Below are positions 19,653-59,976 of a stretch of 64,000 bases of DNA, piece after piece. Location: contig MGOY01000046.1 of the NCBI GenBank assembly GCA_001797275.1, positions 1 to 64,000 of the forward strand, read 5' to 3'. The stretch comes from Clostridiales bacterium GWF2_38_85. Its GTDB lineage: Bacteria > Bacillota > Clostridia > Oscillospirales > CAG-382. Position 1 is the first letter of the stretch, and every line of letters begins with the position of its first letter. A program made the position numbers and the translations under genes. The notes beneath the pieces were generated by a model. That model worked only from the letters and a program-made list of their open reading frames with translations. It was not told the DNA's origin and searched no databases.

Positions 19653-21998
19653 CTACCCGAATATTTTTCTTGCAATGTCAACAGCCTGCTTTGCGTCAGC
19701 TGCATAAAAATCTGCGCCGATACGGTTTGCAACTTCATTGGTTATAACTGCTCCGCCGATCATTATTTTTGTGTCGGGAGTTTTTTCTCTGAGCATCTTT
19801 ATAGTGGCTTCCATGCTGGTGATTGTTGTTGTCATCAACGCACTAAGACCTGCCAGCTTTGCATCGTGTTCGATTACAGCTTCGACGACAGCTTCGGCAC
19901 TGACATCTCTGCCCAGGTCGATAACATCGTAACCGTAGTTTTCGAGCAGAGTTCTGACTATATTTTTGCCGATATCATGTATATCGCCCTTAACTGTGCA
20001 GATAACAATCGTTCCCTTGCCTTTTACTACCGACCCTGATGATTTATAATAATTTTTTATAACATTAAAGGCCGCTTCCGCTGCGTTTGCGGAGGATATC
20101 AGCTGCGGTAAAAAGAAAACACCTCTCTCAAATTTCGCGCCGACAGTATCAAGCGCCGGTATCAGTCTCTTTTTAATAATTGCTTCTGCAGAGGATACTT
20201 TTAAAGCTTCTATTGTCAGGTCGGCAGCTTCAGCCGCAAGTCCTTTTATTACTGCGAGCTTCAGTGGGTCGCTTTCGTCTGCAGAATTATCTTTTGCCAT
20301 CATGTCAATATAATTACCTGCATCCCTATCTTCACCAAGCAAAACTTTAAGTGCAGCAACAGTCTCTTTGGTTTCTGTTGTCGAAGGGTTAATTATTGCA
20401 AGGTTGAGCCCTGCCTGAACAGCAAGTACAAGGAAGGTTGTATTGATAAGCGGTCTGTCGGGAAGGCCGAAGGATATATTAGATACACCGAGTAATGTTT
20501 TCAATCCTAATTCTTCGCGGACTGTGCGGATTGCTTTAAGGGTTTCAACAGCCTGCTCCTGCTGTGCCGAAACAGTGAGTGTTAGGCAGTCGATTATAAG
20601 TTTATGTTTGGGTATGCCGTGTTTTTCTGCGGCAGTCATAATACGTTTTGCAATTTCGATTCGTTCTTTTGCAGTCTGAGGAATTCCTGCTTCATCAAGG
20701 CACAAGCCTACAACAAAAGCACCGTATTTCTTTGATATAGGAAGAATAGCTTCAAGCGATTCGGGTTTACCGTTAACAGAATTGATTATTGCCACACCGT
20801 TGAAAGCTCGAAGTCCGGCTTCGATAGCTTTAGGATCGGACGAATCTATTTGAAGAGGCAGTGAGGTTATTTCCTGCACCGTTGTGACTACCTTAGCCAT
20901 CGTTTCTGCTTCGTTTATTCCCGAAACACCGACATTAATATCAAGAACATCGGCTCCATCAATGGTTTGTTCCGATGCCTGAGCGAGTACATAATCCATA
21001 TTACCGTCTATAATTGCTGCTGTCATCTTCTTTTTACCTGTAGGGTTCAACCGTTCACCTACCAGCTTCAAACCGAAGTCCAAGTCAATTACTTTTGTTG
21101 ACGAGCAGACGATGCTTTTTGGGATGTATTCACGCTCTGGAGGAATAAAATCAACATAACGCTTTTTCAACTCACGTATATAATCGGGGTTGGAACCGCA
21201 GCAGCCGCCGATGAATTTGACGCCGAAGTTCAATATCGGCTCGAAATAATCCGAGAACAGGCAATTGTCTATATTATAATATCCGCACTGGTCCGGCAGT
21301 CCGGCATTGGGTTTTACGATAACGGGCAGGCTTGTATTTTCACAAATTTCTTTAACAACAGAAACAACATCGTTCGGGCCGAGTGAACAGTTCATTCCGA
21401 TTGCGTCAACACCGAGAGCAGATATTGTCTGAGCAAAAGTAACTGCGGAACAACCGGTGAATGTTCTGGCGTTCTTTTCAAAGGTCATTGTTGCCATAAC
21501 CGGTAGATCTGTGTTTTCCTTTGCGGCAAGAACAGCGGCACGCATCTCAATAAGGTCTGATATGGTTTCAAAAACGATGATATCAGCACCGGCTTTTTCT
21601 CCGGAGATAACAAGAGGTTTGAATGCGTTGTATAGTTCATCAAAAGAAATAAACATCTGACCTGTTGAACCAAGCGATAAAGCTACAGCCGCGCCATAGG
21701 GCTTTGCGGCAGAAACAGCGATTTTAACTGCGGCATTAATAAGCTCCTCGGGAGTGTACGGAGCCGGTACCTTGTACTTATTTGCTCCGAAGGTGTTTGT
21801 GTAAATGATATCTGCTCCTGCGGCAAGGTATTTTTCGTGTACCGCTCTGATTTTGTCGGGGACAGTCAGGTTGAGCAGCTCAGGTGAAAAGCCGGGCGGT
21901 AAAATGCCGTCCTGAAGCATGGTACCCATTGCACCGTCAAGAAATATTATATTTTTTTTCAGAAGCTGACTGAATTTATTATTCATAATAAGGCACAT
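19653..21998 (-). CDS. metH: Cobalamin-dependent methionine synthase (short form)
   Basis: Transfers methyl from methyl-THF via cobalamin to homocysteine. About 781 residues in three modules: homocysteine-binding barrel with zinc cysteines (GMNCSLGP, GGCCGSNPDYI), pterin-binding barrel (GERLNPTGKKKM, ADVLDINVG) and the B12-binding pair of domains (GDIHDIGKNIV with the axial histidine). The C-terminal SAM-dependent reactivation domain of E. coli MetH is absent, as is usual in Clostridia, where reactivation is done by a separate protein; none is seen here. Start set at 21998 (AAAGGAAAG just upstream); ATG 21986 is an alternative. Followed after 12 bases by msrA. Confidence 0.92.
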   Translation of the reverse strand: MCLIMNNKFSQLLKKNIIFLDGAMGTMLQDGILPPGFSPELLNLTVPDKIRAVHEKYLAAGADIIYTNTFGANKYKVPAPYTPEELINAAVKIAVSAAKPYGAAVALSLGSTGQMFISFDELYNAFKPLVISGEKAGADIIVFETISDLIEMRAAVLAAKENTDLPVMATMTFEKNARTFTGCSAVTFAQTISALGVDAIGMNCSLGPNDVVSVVKEICENTSLPVIVKPNAGLPDQCGYYNIDNCLFSDYFEPILNFGVKFIGGCCGSNPDYIRELKKRYVDFIPPEREYIPKSIVCSSTKVIDLDFGLKLVGERLNPTGKKKMTAAIIDGNMDYVLAQASEQTIDGADVLDINVGVSGINEAETMAKVVTTVQEITSLPLQIDSSDPKAIEAGLRAFNGVAIINSVNGKPESLEAILPISKKYGAFVVGLCLDEAGIPQTAKERIEIAKRIMTAAEKHGIPKHKLIIDCLTLTVSAQQEQAVETLKAIRTVREELGLKTLLGVSNISFGLPDRPLINTTFLVLAVQAGLNLAIINPSTTETKETVAALKVLLGEDRDAGNYIDMMAKDNSADESDPLKLAVIKGLAAEAADLTIEALKVSSAEAIIKKRLIPALDTVGAKFERGVFFLPQLISSANAAEAAFNVIKNYYKSSGSVVKGKGTIVICTVKGDIHDIGKNIVRTLLENYGYDVIDLGRDVSAEAVVEAVIEHDAKLAGLSALMTTTITSMEATIKMLREKTPDTKIMIGGAVITNEVANRIGADFYAADAKQAVDIARKIFG

Positions 21999-22345
21999 AC
22001 TTTCCTTTAGAATTTGTGTGGTTTTAGCTTGCCGAAATTCCGTCGTGCCGACGTAAAGCATAAATTCTTAGGTTGAACAAATTAAGATTGTAAGAAATTC
22101 TTCTTTATGTTCACCCAAAACCTTTTTAGGCAATCGATAATGAAACTGATATTATTTTTTTCATTGTAACATAAAACCGTCATGAAATCAATTATTTTAT
22201 CTATCAATTCAAGATTTCCTAGCAAAAATTTTTAATTTATAAAAAATCATATTTGCAAAAGAATAGTTGTTGTGTTATAATTACAGAAAGTGATGTTTTT
22301 CGGCTGAAAGCATTATAAATACGTAACACAAGATGGAGTTTTAAT
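21999..22345. other. AT-rich gap upstream of dnaA (possible origin region without clear DnaA boxes)
   Basis: About 350 bases between divergent metH and dnaA, with A/T tracts (22150-22250) of the kind seen in unwinding elements. I find no 9-mer within one mismatch of TTATCCACA here or between dnaA and dnaN. A dnaA promoter is visible at its end. No SAM riboswitch is recognisable on the metH side. Confidence 0.4.
22253..22281 (+). promoter_or_regulatory. dnaA promoter
   Basis: TTGCAA (22253-22258), 17-base spacer, TATAAT (22276-22281), about 65 bases before the dnaA ATG. Confidence 0.7.
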
Positions 22346-23701: not shown

Positions 23702-23742
23702 AGGCAAGCAGTAAACAATGTTATCGAAAAAAGGATGGTTAT

Positions 23743-23829
23743 AAGTTTGAAAATAAATTTTCAAACTATGGTTTTGTGTCTTTTGGCCAACAGAGTGGCG
23801 AAAGTTTTACTTCGTAAAACACGGCACAA
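23743..23829 (+). repeat. Structured intergenic element, copy A (dnaA-dnaN gap)
   Basis: Four stems can be drawn: P1 GTTTGAAAA/TTTTCAAAC (23745-23766); P2 TTGTGTC (23774-23780) with GGCACAA (23823-23829); P3 GCCA (23786-23789) with TGGC (23796-23799); P4 GTTTTAC/GTAAAAC (23804-23820). The same arrangement with different bases recurs at 59238-59323, including the shared string CAAACTATGG before P2. The dnaN ribosome binding site (GAAAGGA) lies 15-20 bases after P2. Confidence 0.6.
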
Positions 23830-23862
23830 TTCCCGACCACATAGAAAGGAACATTCATAAAT

Positions 23863-24981
23863 ATGAAATTCAGAATTGAAAAAAAAGATCTTCTTGACCT
23901 TATCATTCCTGCGCAAGCGGCTTGTTCAACAAAGGCAACGCTTCCGGCACTCGAAGGTCTGCTGCTGTCGGTTACCGGCGATACAATTGTTATCAGCGGT
24001 TATGACCTTGAAAAGGGTGTTCGCGCCGAAGGCGTTATTATGGATGGTGAAGATGGCGAAATAATACTCAATGCACAGAAATTTGTTGCCATTATAAGGA
24101 ATATGCCTGATAACGATCAAATTATATTTATCTCGGATGATAAAAACAATGCGACCGTATCGGGAGGCAATGCTGAATTCAATATTCACGGTATACCTGC
24201 AAGTGCATTTCCGACACTTCCCGAACTTGATAATGATACCTCATTCTCAATTTCTCAGAGAACATTGAAAGAACTTATAACAACTACTATCTTTTCGGTT
24301 GCCCAGAATGACACGCGTCCGATTCTTACAGGCGAGCTTCTGAAAATTGAAGGTTCAAATATAGCTGTTGTTGCAATCGATAATTGCCGAATGGCAATCC
24401 GTCATGCGTACAATGCGATAATCAATAATACCGAAAATTACAGCGTGGTTGTACCCGGTAAAGCACTCAGCGAGCTTGTCAGACTGTTAAGCGATAGCGA
24501 AGAGCAAATCAGCATAGAGCTTACCAGAAAAAATATTGTGTTCAAGCTTAAAAACATAATAATGTTTACCAGACTTCTTGAAGGTGAATTTCTTGATTTT
24601 GAGAATCTTATACCGAAGTCACCAAAGATATTTATGAAGGTTCCGACCATCGCTTTACTTGACAGTGTAGAAAGAGTATCATTGATGGTCGACGAAAAGC
24701 TTAAGACACCAATCAAGTGTGTTATCACAGACAGAGCAATCGAAATATCCTGTGCAAATCAGTTCGGTAAGGTTGTGGATATTGTACCGATAGAAAAACA
24801 AGGTATAGATCTTGAAATCGGGTTTAACAATAAATATATCATCGATGCAATGCGTTTCTGCAAGAGTGAGCTTATTGATATTGAGCTTACGACGGCCTTG
24901 ATGGGTATGGTAATAAAGCCTGCAGTCAAAGATGAAAACAGCGATTATACATACATGGTTCTTCCCTGCCGTATAAAATAG
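23863..24981 (+). CDS. dnaN: DNA polymerase III sliding clamp (beta subunit)
   Basis: Ring-shaped processivity clamp; 372 residues in three repeated domains, the normal length. The start MKFRIEKKDLLDLI, the segment LPALEGLLLSVTGDTIVISG and the C-terminal YTYMVLPCRIK are typical; the final MxLPxR block forms part of the peptide-binding pocket. AAAGGAAC lies upstream of ATG 23863. Between dnaA and dnaN lies a structured element that could control the dnaA/dnaN ratio. Confidence 0.96.
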   Translation: MKFRIEKKDLLDLIIPAQAACSTKATLPALEGLLLSVTGDTIVISGYDLEKGVRAEGVIMDGEDGEIILNAQKFVAIIRNMPDNDQIIFISDDKNNATVSGGNAEFNIHGIPASAFPTLPELDNDTSFSISQRTLKELITTTIFSVAQNDTRPILTGELLKIEGSNIAVVAIDNCRMAIRHAYNAIINNTENYSVVVPGKALSELVRLLSDSEEQISIELTRKNIVFKLKNIIMFTRLLEGEFLDFENLIPKSPKIFMKVPTIALLDSVERVSLMVDEKLKTPIKCVITDRAIEISCANQFGKVVDIVPIEKQGIDLEIGFNNKYIIDAMRFCKSELIDIELTTALMGMVIKPAVKDENSDYTYMVLPCRIK

Positions 24982-24993
24982 TATAAAAATTAA

Positions 24994-26244
<1,251 letters not shown>

Positions 26245-44246: not shown

Positions 44247-44315
44247 AAGGAGGTTGTCTGAAAGAAATTCTTTCAGACAACGAGATTTATGCTTTTCAGC
44301 ATAAATCAAAGCTGA
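44247..44315 (+). promoter_or_regulatory. Orphan Shine-Dalgarno followed by two hairpins in the rpsP-khpA gap
   Basis: A perfect AAGGAGG (44247-44253) runs into a 13-bp inverted repeat (44254-44266 with 44268-44280), then eight bases, then an ATG (44289) that opens only MLFSINQS and stop. A second stem, GATTTATGC/GCATAAATC (44284-44307), covers that ATG. The khpA start is a further 60 bases on with its own ribosome binding site. Looks like a leader peptide or attenuation element rather than a terminator, as no T-run follows. Confidence 0.45.
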
Positions 44316-44369
44316 AATTTCGAAAGCGAAACCGCACAAAACATCGATGTATAATCGAGAAGGATGGTT

Positions 44370-44603
44370 ATGGTTATGAAGCAAGTTTTAGTAGACATCG
44401 CGAAAGCAATCGTTGAGTTTCCCGATGAGGTTATAGTCAATGAAAAGGAAAGCGGAGATATGGTTATCCTTGAGCTTTCGGTCGCCAAAAGCGATATGGG
44501 TAAGGTTATAGGCAAGCAGGGCAGAATAGCAAAGGCTATCCGCACCCTTGTCAGAGCATCGGCTAACCTTCAGAATAAGAGAGTTATCGTCGATATTGTT
44601 TAA
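44370..44603 (+). CDS. khpA: KH-domain RNA-binding protein KhpA
   Basis: About 77 residues. Single KH domain with VIGKQGRIAKAIRTLVRA (GxxG loop) and the N-terminal VDIAKAIVEFPDEV typical of KhpA/YlqC, a partner of KhpB in small-RNA binding and cell division. The start is ambiguous among ATG 44364, 44370 and 44376; GAGAAGGA (44357-44364) favours 44370. Last gene of the SRP/S16 block; a terminator follows. Confidence 0.92.
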   Translation: MVMKQVLVDIAKAIVEFPDEVIVNEKESGDMVILELSVAKSDMGKVIGKQGRIAKAIRTLVRASANLQNKRVIVDIV

Positions 44604-56344: not shown

Positions 56345-56467
56345 AAACAAATTTATGCCTTGAAAGGCGTGGAGGTTAGCGTGATGAATGTTGGAATTAA
56401 GGACACATATATGCGTACCTCCGCTGAATTAACAAACAAATTTATGCCTTGTAAGGCGTGGAGGTTA
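56345..56467 (+). repeat. 34-bp direct repeat carrying two copies of the secA Shine-Dalgarno region
   Basis: 56345-56378 and 56434-56467 are identical except for one base (A 56363, T 56452). Each contains a small GCCT/AGGC hairpin and GTGGAGGT. Between them ACCTCCGC (56417-56424) can pair over 8 bp with the GTGGAGGT of either copy (56369-56376 or 56458-56465). This gives two mutually exclusive structures in the secA leader. Confidence 0.8.
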
Positions 56468-56473
56468 TATTGA
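56384..56473 (+). CDS. 29-codon leader ORF coupled to secA
   Basis: ATG 56384 lies 8 bases after the first GGAGG and opens a frame reading MNVGIKDTYMRTSAELTNKF and nine more residues, ending TGA at 56471-56473, 2 bases before the secA ATG. The codons for Arg11-Ala14 overlay the ACCTCCGC anti-Shine-Dalgarno, and the last codons cover the second repeat. The peptide has no hydrophobic segment, so it is unlike SecM. Translation would open the secA ribosome binding site by removing the pairing. Inferred; no family known. Confidence 0.5.
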   Translation: MNVGIKDTYMRTSAELTNKFMPCKAWRLY

Positions 56474-56475
56474 TA

Positions 56476-59220: not shown

Positions 59221-59237
59221 TAATATTGAGGATAAAA

Positions 59238-59323
59238 TTTGAAAGATTAATCTTTCAAACTATGGGTTTGTGTCTTCTGCACCATTGACATGGAGTAAAT
59301 CAGGCTTTATCAGAATGACACAA
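59238..59323 (+). repeat. Structured intergenic element, copy B (after secA)
   Basis: Same arrangement as at 23743-23829 with altered bases that keep pairing: P1 TTTGAAAGAT/ATCTTTCAAA (59238-59259), P2 TTGTGTC (59268-59274) with GACACAA (59317-59323), P3 CCAT (59282-59285) with ATGG (59290-59293), P4 TAAA (59296-59299) with TTTA (59306-59309). The shared CAAACTATGG joins P1 to P2. The next gene starts 33 bases after P2. Confidence 0.6.
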
Positions 59324-59355
59324 TCCCCACTCACTATATAAGGAATATTATAGTT

Positions 59356-59976
59356 ATGGGATTCGGAATTTGCTTTTTTGCAAACACATTGCTGCTTTTT
59401 GATATATTCGGGACAGAAGTTTTTGCTTTTGCCTTGTTCGGCTATGGCTTTGCTTTGTTGATGGCATCAGATCGAAGATTCAAGCTCGGAGCATTGTTTG
59501 CCGGACTTGCCATAACCCCATCATTGTTTAAACTTTTCAATACAACAAGAATAATTGACTTGTCAAATGAACCTGAGCTGAACCTGATTATTCATATAGC
59601 GATTTCTGTTTTCATGCTTCTGATGTACTCAGTGCTCTTTATCGGAGTGAAGAAAATCGCAGCCGAAGGCGGAGATCTGAAGTTATCAAAGCAAAGCAGT
59701 TGGGTAATGCGCATTACCTTTACTGTATTGATTTTGTACAGCACAGCGCAGATTCTGAGTCTTGAATTTTTCAATGTCGATTCATCTGTTCTTTCTGCGC
59801 TTGGGATAACACTTATACTCAGGTATATTATGCTAATAATCAACACAGTATATCTTTATTTCTGTTATGCAACAATAACAACACCACAGCTTCTTAAAAA
59901 AGAACAGAAATCAGATATTGAATATGAATTAAAGCAAAAAAAGAAAAAGGAGAAAAACGATTCAGAAGAGGAGTAA
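59356..59976 (+). CDS. Membrane protein of unknown function (four to five helices)
   Basis: 206 residues. About five hydrophobic segments (near 2-18, 22-50, 74-96, 115-135 and 145-170) and a highly charged Lys/Glu tail (about 180-206). No family recognised. The following membrane protein starts 5 bases later, so the pair is likely one unit and may form a complex. ATG 59356 has AAGGAA upstream. Confidence 0.7.
   Translation: MGFGICFFANTLLLFDIFGTEVFAFALFGYGFALLMASDRRFKLGALFAGLAITPSLFKLFNTTRIIDLSNEPELNLIIHIAISVFMLLMYSVLFIGVKKIAAEGGDLKLSKQSSWVMRITFTVLILYSTAQILSLEFFNVDSSVLSALGITLILRYIMLIINTVYLYFCYATITTPQLLKKEQKSDIEYELKQKKKKEKNDSEEE

Follow-up and report, generated by a model that had tools for sequence, protein, structure and literature searches.

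A family of hairpin-rich elements between Shine-Dalgarno-like sequences and start codons in Clostridiales bacterium GWF2_38_85 and other genomes

Copies of the element in the window

The stretch of Clostridiales bacterium GWF2_38_85 DNA analysed here (the window, 64,000 nt in full) contains, among the neighbour genes assigned by NCBIfam, those for DnaA, DnaN, SecA, a KH-domain protein and a MetH-like protein, the KH and MetH matches lying below their cut-offs. An earlier sequence-only reading described two copies of a structured element here, one before dnaN and one after secA, and inspection of the sequence confirmed both, with the stems and the linker given for them. Both copies have the order P1, short linker, P2 enclosing a junction of P3 and P4, and tail; CAAACTATGG is common to both, and P1 starts at 23745 in the dnaN copy and at 59237 in the copy after secA. 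The feature extends beyond the end noted earlier, through a Shine-Dalgarno (SD)-like tail that runs up to the start codons at 23863 and 59356.

The dnaN copy lies on the plus strand (model match 23745-23865, E 2.7e-18). Its P1 hairpin, GTTTGAAAAT/ATTTTCAAAC, occupies 23745..23766 and is followed by P2 (TTGTGTC/GGCACAA, 23774..23829), which surrounds P3 (GCCA/TGGC, 23786-23799) and P4 (GTTTTAC/GTAAAAC, 23804-23820), these three stems being assigned from the sequence and from covariation in the family. The tail (23830..23862), assigned from the sequence and from an 80-copy tail consensus, contains the SD-like AGAAAGGA at 23843-23850 and leads into the dnaN start codon at 23863. The 5′ flank on the same strand, with the SD-like AAAAAAGGATGGTTATAA (23727..23744), matches a degenerate pattern of the element's tail exactly and is either the native SD or the remnant of an earlier copy; such a tail-like 5′ flank was seen in 4 of 121 copies.

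The second copy (59237..59355, plus strand; model match 59237-59358, E 6.3e-11) lies between secA and a gene starting at 59356 for which no NCBIfam family matched; its P1 spans 59237-59260, the AAGG of its tail lies at 59340-59343, and an SD-like GAGG precedes it at 59228..59231. The covariance model added a third copy on the plus strand (44256..44375; model match 44256-44378, E 3.2e-7), which belongs to the GTCTGAAAG subfamily, lies before the KH-domain protein gene and has AAGGAGGTT directly upstream, and a weak fourth copy of the long-P1 subfamily on the minus strand (21984..22116), which ends at the start codon of the MetH-like gene and scores E 0.0079, or 0.515 in the whole-genome search.

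Two other features of the window were observed. Before secA (56345-56475), AACAAATTTATGCCTTGNAAGGCGTGGAGGTTA occurs twice about 86 nt apart, each time with a small hairpin, an SD and a start, and a short ORF begins at the first copy and runs as far as the secA start region; this might represent a leader ORF or, alternatively, another type of duplicated ribosome-binding site. After dnaN (25028-25096) lies a G+C-richer stretch with repeated GGAAGGC/GCCTTCC units and a long imperfect palindrome (GTGCCTTTCCGTGCCGGAAGGC ... GCCTTCCGGCACGGAAAGGC).

Extent and structure of the family

The description of the element as two-copy proved wrong, because a covariance model finds 77 matches in the same genome. 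The resemblance of the copies is no coincidence: the 13-mer TTTCAAACTATGG occurs exactly eight times in the 2.83 Mb genome, and by inspection seven of these occurrences fall in element copies, locus L004 being the exception; the same architecture was found in 12 of the 15 loci retrieved by this 13-mer with at most one mismatch. The 77 matches were obtained at E<=1 with a first model built from four own-genome copies; 10 were discounted from their coordinates because P1 is a palindrome that can be read on the other strand, and the remaining 67 were taken as distinct, although the weakest of these may include chance matches. A second model, built from 66 copies, gave 45 own-genome matches at E<=1e-4. 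The copy set used below comprises 138 matches minus 17 judged to be opposite-strand palindromic P1, that is 121 copies, of which 18 without seven consecutive P1 pairs were dropped for flank statistics, leaving 103; throughout, E-values are rough and the genomes are drafts.

The search with a covariance model that the earlier reading had asked for thus yielded further copies both in the genome itself and in its relatives. Matches at E<=1e-4 were present in 9 of 63 genomes of the family, 24 of 394 in a sample of the order and 3 of 391 in a sample of the class, counts that include the own genome and are lower bounds because few candidates per genome are scored in large samples. The distribution is patchy: at the same threshold, one genome (G025) has 30 matches and its congeners G005 and G017 have none, and another (G030) has seven and its congeners G011, G022 and G084 none. 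Carriage by phages or plasmids is unsupported, since one exact pattern of the element matched no viral contig and one element copy matched none of the plasmids and phages.

Element length is mostly about 95-170 nt, with a few copies reduced to about 50 nt. The subfamilies differ in the sequence of P1 and of P3/P4, and some copies carry an additional hairpin in P3 or several hairpins replacing P4. Six loci (L115, L116, L119, L120, L121 and L154) consist of P1 and tail without P2-P4, with differing junctions, which gives these short forms the appearance of having lost the foldback domain by a deletion at its base. Tandem arrays of two or three head-to-tail copies were observed in G025 (L138, 1342-1595; L058; L135; L133). 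A pattern of the tail gave 39 matches in the own genome and none in the control; seven of them have no adjacent model match, one of which (L268) looks like a copy without P1, and the approximately 230 nt upstream of five of these seven tails contained no large element that could represent a longer autonomous version.

No named motif had been recognised in the element, and this agrees with Rfam 15, in which only a tRNA reached the gathering score across the window, the element being unmatched; at E<=1, 14 loci gave six matches, all below gathering, none over the element and none plausible. The compensatory base changes reported for the two copies hold for the family as a whole. Across the 66 copies, 94.4% of cells are paired and 27 of the 29 pairs have changes on both sides; the covariation score reaches 0.525, compared with 0.164 for shuffled alignments and 0.04-0.07 for slid partners, which bears out the covariation in an expanded alignment that had been named beforehand as a test. 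The result was repeated in 27 copies of other genomes, none of them in the model, with two-sided changes in 24 of 29 pairs and a score of 0.560 vs 0.162. Both alignments were fitted to the model, so that the counts lean towards it, but the large gap to the slid-partner controls makes a pure fitting artefact unlikely, and genuine covariation of the stems is strongly supported.

The further step taken in the sequence-only reading, from covariation to selection on RNA structure, is not established by our data. A-C cells are G-U pairs only when the other strand is read, and under selection on RNA, G-U would be expected to outnumber A-C clearly; in the fitted alignments, A-C is about as frequent as G-U (55 G-U vs 48 A-C in one, 13 vs 18 in the other). 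When arms were placed by Watson-Crick pairs only, P1 had 17 G-U vs 7 A-C and the internal hairpins 7 vs 5, so that G-U was modestly in excess, and nine tRNAs gave 20 vs 0, a comparison in which the tRNA finder itself disfavours A-C. To us this suggests a weak or absent preference for the RNA strand, which is consistent with, rather than proof of, hairpins that matter as DNA, and it is a caution that covariation in intergenic repeats need not reflect selection on RNA.

Position between ribosome-binding site and start codon

A key feature absent from the earlier reading is that the copies sit between an SD-like sequence and a start codon. An SD-like 4-mer lies within 16 nt 5′ of P1 in 77 of 103 copies, compared with 16 and 20 of 103 for two control windows upstream; the SD end is most often 5-6 nt away from P1, with a median of 6 nt. 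In copies of other genomes the figure is 20 of 26, vs 7 and 4 in the controls. Since this flank lies outside the model, the enrichment is independent evidence. The remaining 26 of 103 copies lack such a 4-mer there, the own pheT copy being among them by eye. At the other end, the conserved 3′ tail AGAAAGGAATGGTCATA is itself SD-like, and its spacing to the start codon is almost constant: the consensus of the 3′ end before the start codon in 80 copies is AGAAAGGAATGGTCATAnnn, the AAGG lies exactly 13 nt before the start in 58 of the 73 copies that have one, and about 3 variable nt separate the conserved tail from the start codon. An SD this far from the start is not peculiar to the element, because 8 of the 20 SD-bearing window genes without a called element have theirs 12-13 nt from the start (20 of 31 such genes have an SD-like 4-mer, at a median of 9.5 nt). 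In some copies from other families (L170, L285, L289, L290 and L291), a further hairpin separates the start codon from the SD-like sequence of the element, and from its position it would either hold SD and start apart or loop them together.

The copies are in sense orientation relative to the downstream gene. At the 3′ end of 58 of 66 own-genome copies there is a start codon whose ORF either spans at least 60 aa or runs off the locus, and in other genomes the figures are 15 of 15 (G001), 11 of 28 (G025), 3 of 5 (G030) and, for the others, 7 of 7; of 4000 places drawn at random in the window, 695 conformed to this loose rule. An ORF start exactly at the model end was found for 74 of 103 copies, vs 90 of 20000 random places; since ATG forms the end of the model itself, these start-codon counts are partly ascertained. 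Tandem copies, which put the next element directly after, account in part for the low figure in G025, and some G025 copies have no gene start within reach; likewise, one own-genome miss (L027) has another copy directly after it. A family of trans-acting small RNAs would account for a stable, conserved fold in many copies, but own-genome copies are almost always joined to a start codon and some lie inside operons such as pheS-pheT, and we regard this explanation as extremely improbable. Translation of a leader peptide from the upstream SD was also considered: counting CTG, an NTG lies in the first 9 nt of P1 in 93 of 103 copies, but the reading was rejected because the stop positions are scattered (51 lie over 40 nt upstream of the real start, 16 at most 40 nt before it, 14 at most 30 nt after it and 12 further).

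The median of 6 nt between SD and P1 plus the approximately 3 nt left by the start codon comes near the 9.5 nt of element-free genes, so that removal of the element would leave an ordinary SD-start spacing. This is what would be expected of an intron-like or ribosome-bypassed insert, which is removed or skipped in the RNA and rejoins the native SD to the start. An AAGG at near-constant spacing would be needless if the insert were spliced, however, and the lack of an upstream SD-like 4-mer in about a quarter of the copies, of any Rfam intron or ribozyme match, and of a reverse transcriptase in G001, G025 and G030 also stands against this explanation, which we consider very unlikely.

Mobility, host genes and a proposed mode of insertion

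Eighteen within-genome pairs of copies are at least 88% identical, the best reaching 95.9% and 95.2% over about 145 nt (L101 with L103 and L105), and their flanks are unrelated save in one tandem pair; the similarity extends from P1 to about 3 nt short of the start codon. Orthologues of dnaN, pheT and hemW were located in 28 of 30, 58 of 63 and 16 of 16 genomes searched. With the second model, the element was absent at 69 of 72 orthologous loci of these three genes, and the three loci that have it are the own dnaN, the own pheT and, within a tandem array, the G025 hemW; the orthologues at element-free sites were too diverged for their flanks to be aligned. By eye, 17 other pheT loci of 19 inspected have a short pheS-pheT gap, in most cases with an SD resembling GGAG or GGGG, the G025 pheT leader resembles a decayed copy, and the own pheT copy begins at the pheS stop with no SD left; in G017, lepA and hemW overlap. 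Near-identical copies at unrelated sites together with absence at orthologous sites are what is generally expected of a mobile element.

These data bear on the alternative that a once-mobile element is now kept as a translation module, as an mRNA stabiliser or as an insulator that keeps the ribosome-binding site open. Its location in the leader would suit such a role, and the mean unpaired probability of the tail SD is 0.545 vs 0.412 for the SDs of the 20 window genes without a called element, although 6 and 4 nt, respectively, were measured and the two values are not strictly comparable. Shuffling the element barely alters the accessibility of the tail SD (0.545 vs 0.510, higher in 41 of 72), so that opening of the SD by the folded element is unsupported, and the absence at orthologous loci and the persistence of short forms argue further against a retained module, which we judge distinctly unlikely.

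The host genes are unrelated in function. Proteins encoded downstream of own-genome copies include, by NCBIfam, IleS, RpoC, DnaN, PheT, UvrB, AsnS, ProA, DapB, IlvE and glucose-6-phosphate isomerase (truncation at the locus end leaves IleS and RpoC just under the curated cut-off), with further hosts encoding the KH-domain protein, the MetH-like protein, MiaA, HisD, ribosomal protein L9 (G001), SecE (G030) and RpoC (G601). Several of these genes are essential, and the element also occurs inside operons, such as pheS-pheT. In BLAST comparisons, the two congeneric species had no orthologue in common among the genes downstream of the compared copies; across genomes, downstream proteins reached at best about 30% identity over full length, or 38% over 58 aa, whereas the DnaN proteins of the two congeners are 61% identical. 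This set covered a subset of copies (62 proteins from the own genome, G000, 15 from G001, 23 from G025, 3 from G030 and 7 from others) and retained opposite-strand matches, so that a few of its proteins are spurious, such as the one from the plus strand of L020. The gene rpoC carries a copy in the own genome (L043) and in G601 (L292), in different families and with different subfamily sequences, which reflects either the same landing site used twice or old retention.

Conserved structure directly before start codons, with an SD-like sequence within the tail, is what a cis-regulatory RNA leader (a riboswitch, a thermometer or a protein-bound leader) controlling a large regulon at translation would present. 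The functionally related or orthologous targets of a riboswitch or leader were not found, and the congeners without any match, the copies without the P2-P4 domain, the weak or absent G-U preference and a tail SD that stays nearly as unpaired when the element is shuffled weigh in the same direction; we consider a regulatory leader unlikely. Among the options named in the sequence-only reading, the mobile structured repeat fits best, and the cis-regulator and the small RNA are less favoured.

With respect to the class of the element, it is short, highly base-paired, multi-copy and extragenic, as are MITEs. Target-site duplication was limited to a weak 2-nt excess (17 observed vs 10.0 expected, 5 of 500 shuffles), 3-nt duplications were at 4 vs 3.4, and local alignment of the 5′ flank with the 3′ end gave 5.44 vs 5.33 (87 of 500 shuffles). 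By inspection, the 5′ end GTTTGAAAG and the 3′ end GGTCATA(A) do not form terminal inverted repeats; the sequence complementary to the 5′ end is located within P1. A Y1 (RAYT) transposase gene, expected in genomes with REP or REPIN sequences, was not found in the own genome or its congener: Pfam Y1_Tnp had no match in G000 or its congener G001, an absence that is not absolute in draft genomes, one partial match in the copy-rich G025 and three in the element-free G005. For a retroelement or group II intron, a reverse transcriptase would be expected in copy-rich genomes, yet RVT_1 had one match in G000 and none in G001, G025 and G030 (draft genomes), and it was present in the element-free G011, G022, G014 and G012. 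Neither gene tracks copy number, and both were rejected as mobilisers; because the element shows neither terminal inverted repeats nor a target duplication beyond 2 nt, and the own genome no Y1 match, we do not class it as a MITE or a REP.

Taken together, our data point to a mobile, non-autonomous, hairpin-rich insertion element that lands in sense in the spacer between SD and start codon and carries an SD-like tail, a reading that we regard as probable. We propose that the element lands just after the SD region of a gene and before its start codon, and that its tail takes over initiation as a replacement ribosome-binding site, as suggested by sequence and spacing; insertions would then be nearly neutral even in essential operons. 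The hairpins would be recognised by the mobilising machinery, probably as DNA, and the folded core would keep its shape while its sequence drifts, copies without P2-P4 surviving. The target and the end of the element may follow one sequence rule, which would account for both the SD-like tail and the tandem stacking of copies; the tandem copies, which begin right after an existing tail, fit the tail being a good target itself.

Small structured repeats are known in bacteria, and we know of none that is addressed to the gap between SD and start codon and supplies a substitute signal. The literature covered, mainly titles and abstracts, held analogues only and no repeat with such an address. The BOX, RUP and SPRITE repeats of Streptococcus are short, strongly structured, proliferate in genomes and are viewed as parasitic (PMC3049150). 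The present element resembles them in being a short interspersed repeat with strong predicted structure and modular size (in BOX, a variable number of boxB); it differs in sequence, structure and hosts and in its SD-start address, which is not described for them in the parts of that account used here (PMC3049150), and set against them it has neither a terminal inverted repeat nor a target duplication of more than 2 nt. Like REP and REPIN sequences, it is non-autonomous hairpin DNA in many extragenic copies, but REPs are 20-60 nt long and the present element is a hairpin plus a three-way junction (PMC3116915). In IS200/IS605-type single-strand DNA transposition, the ends are hairpins and the target flanking the left end interacts with a guide in the element (PMC6006769); unlike in these systems and in REP/REPIN, the Y1 transposase family is unmatched in the own genome and its congener. 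Of these, the element stands closest to BOX, RUP and REPINs in kind, and to IS200/IS605-type single-strand elements in possible mechanism. Candidate structured RNAs from the human microbiome include 508 within 25 bp upstream of genes, among which the present family could be catalogued under a number (PMC8040213); in the main text of that study, 'mobile' and 'Shine-Dalgarno' appear nowhere, and the upstream examples considered here are each tied to one gene family.

More tentatively, we suggest as a possibility somewhat short of even that the element is a parasite of ribosome-binding sites, a DNA element whose landing rule is the SD region itself and which is moved by a novel enzyme. The 3′ end of such a parasite must look like its target, so that each insertion would rebuild an SD before the start codon. 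If true, a selfish element could colonise the essential genes rpoC, ileS, dnaN and pheT at little cost; this would explain the presence of a parasite inside essential operons, would amount to a natural replacement of ribosome-binding sites genome-wide, and would point to a new mobilising enzyme with SD-like specificity.
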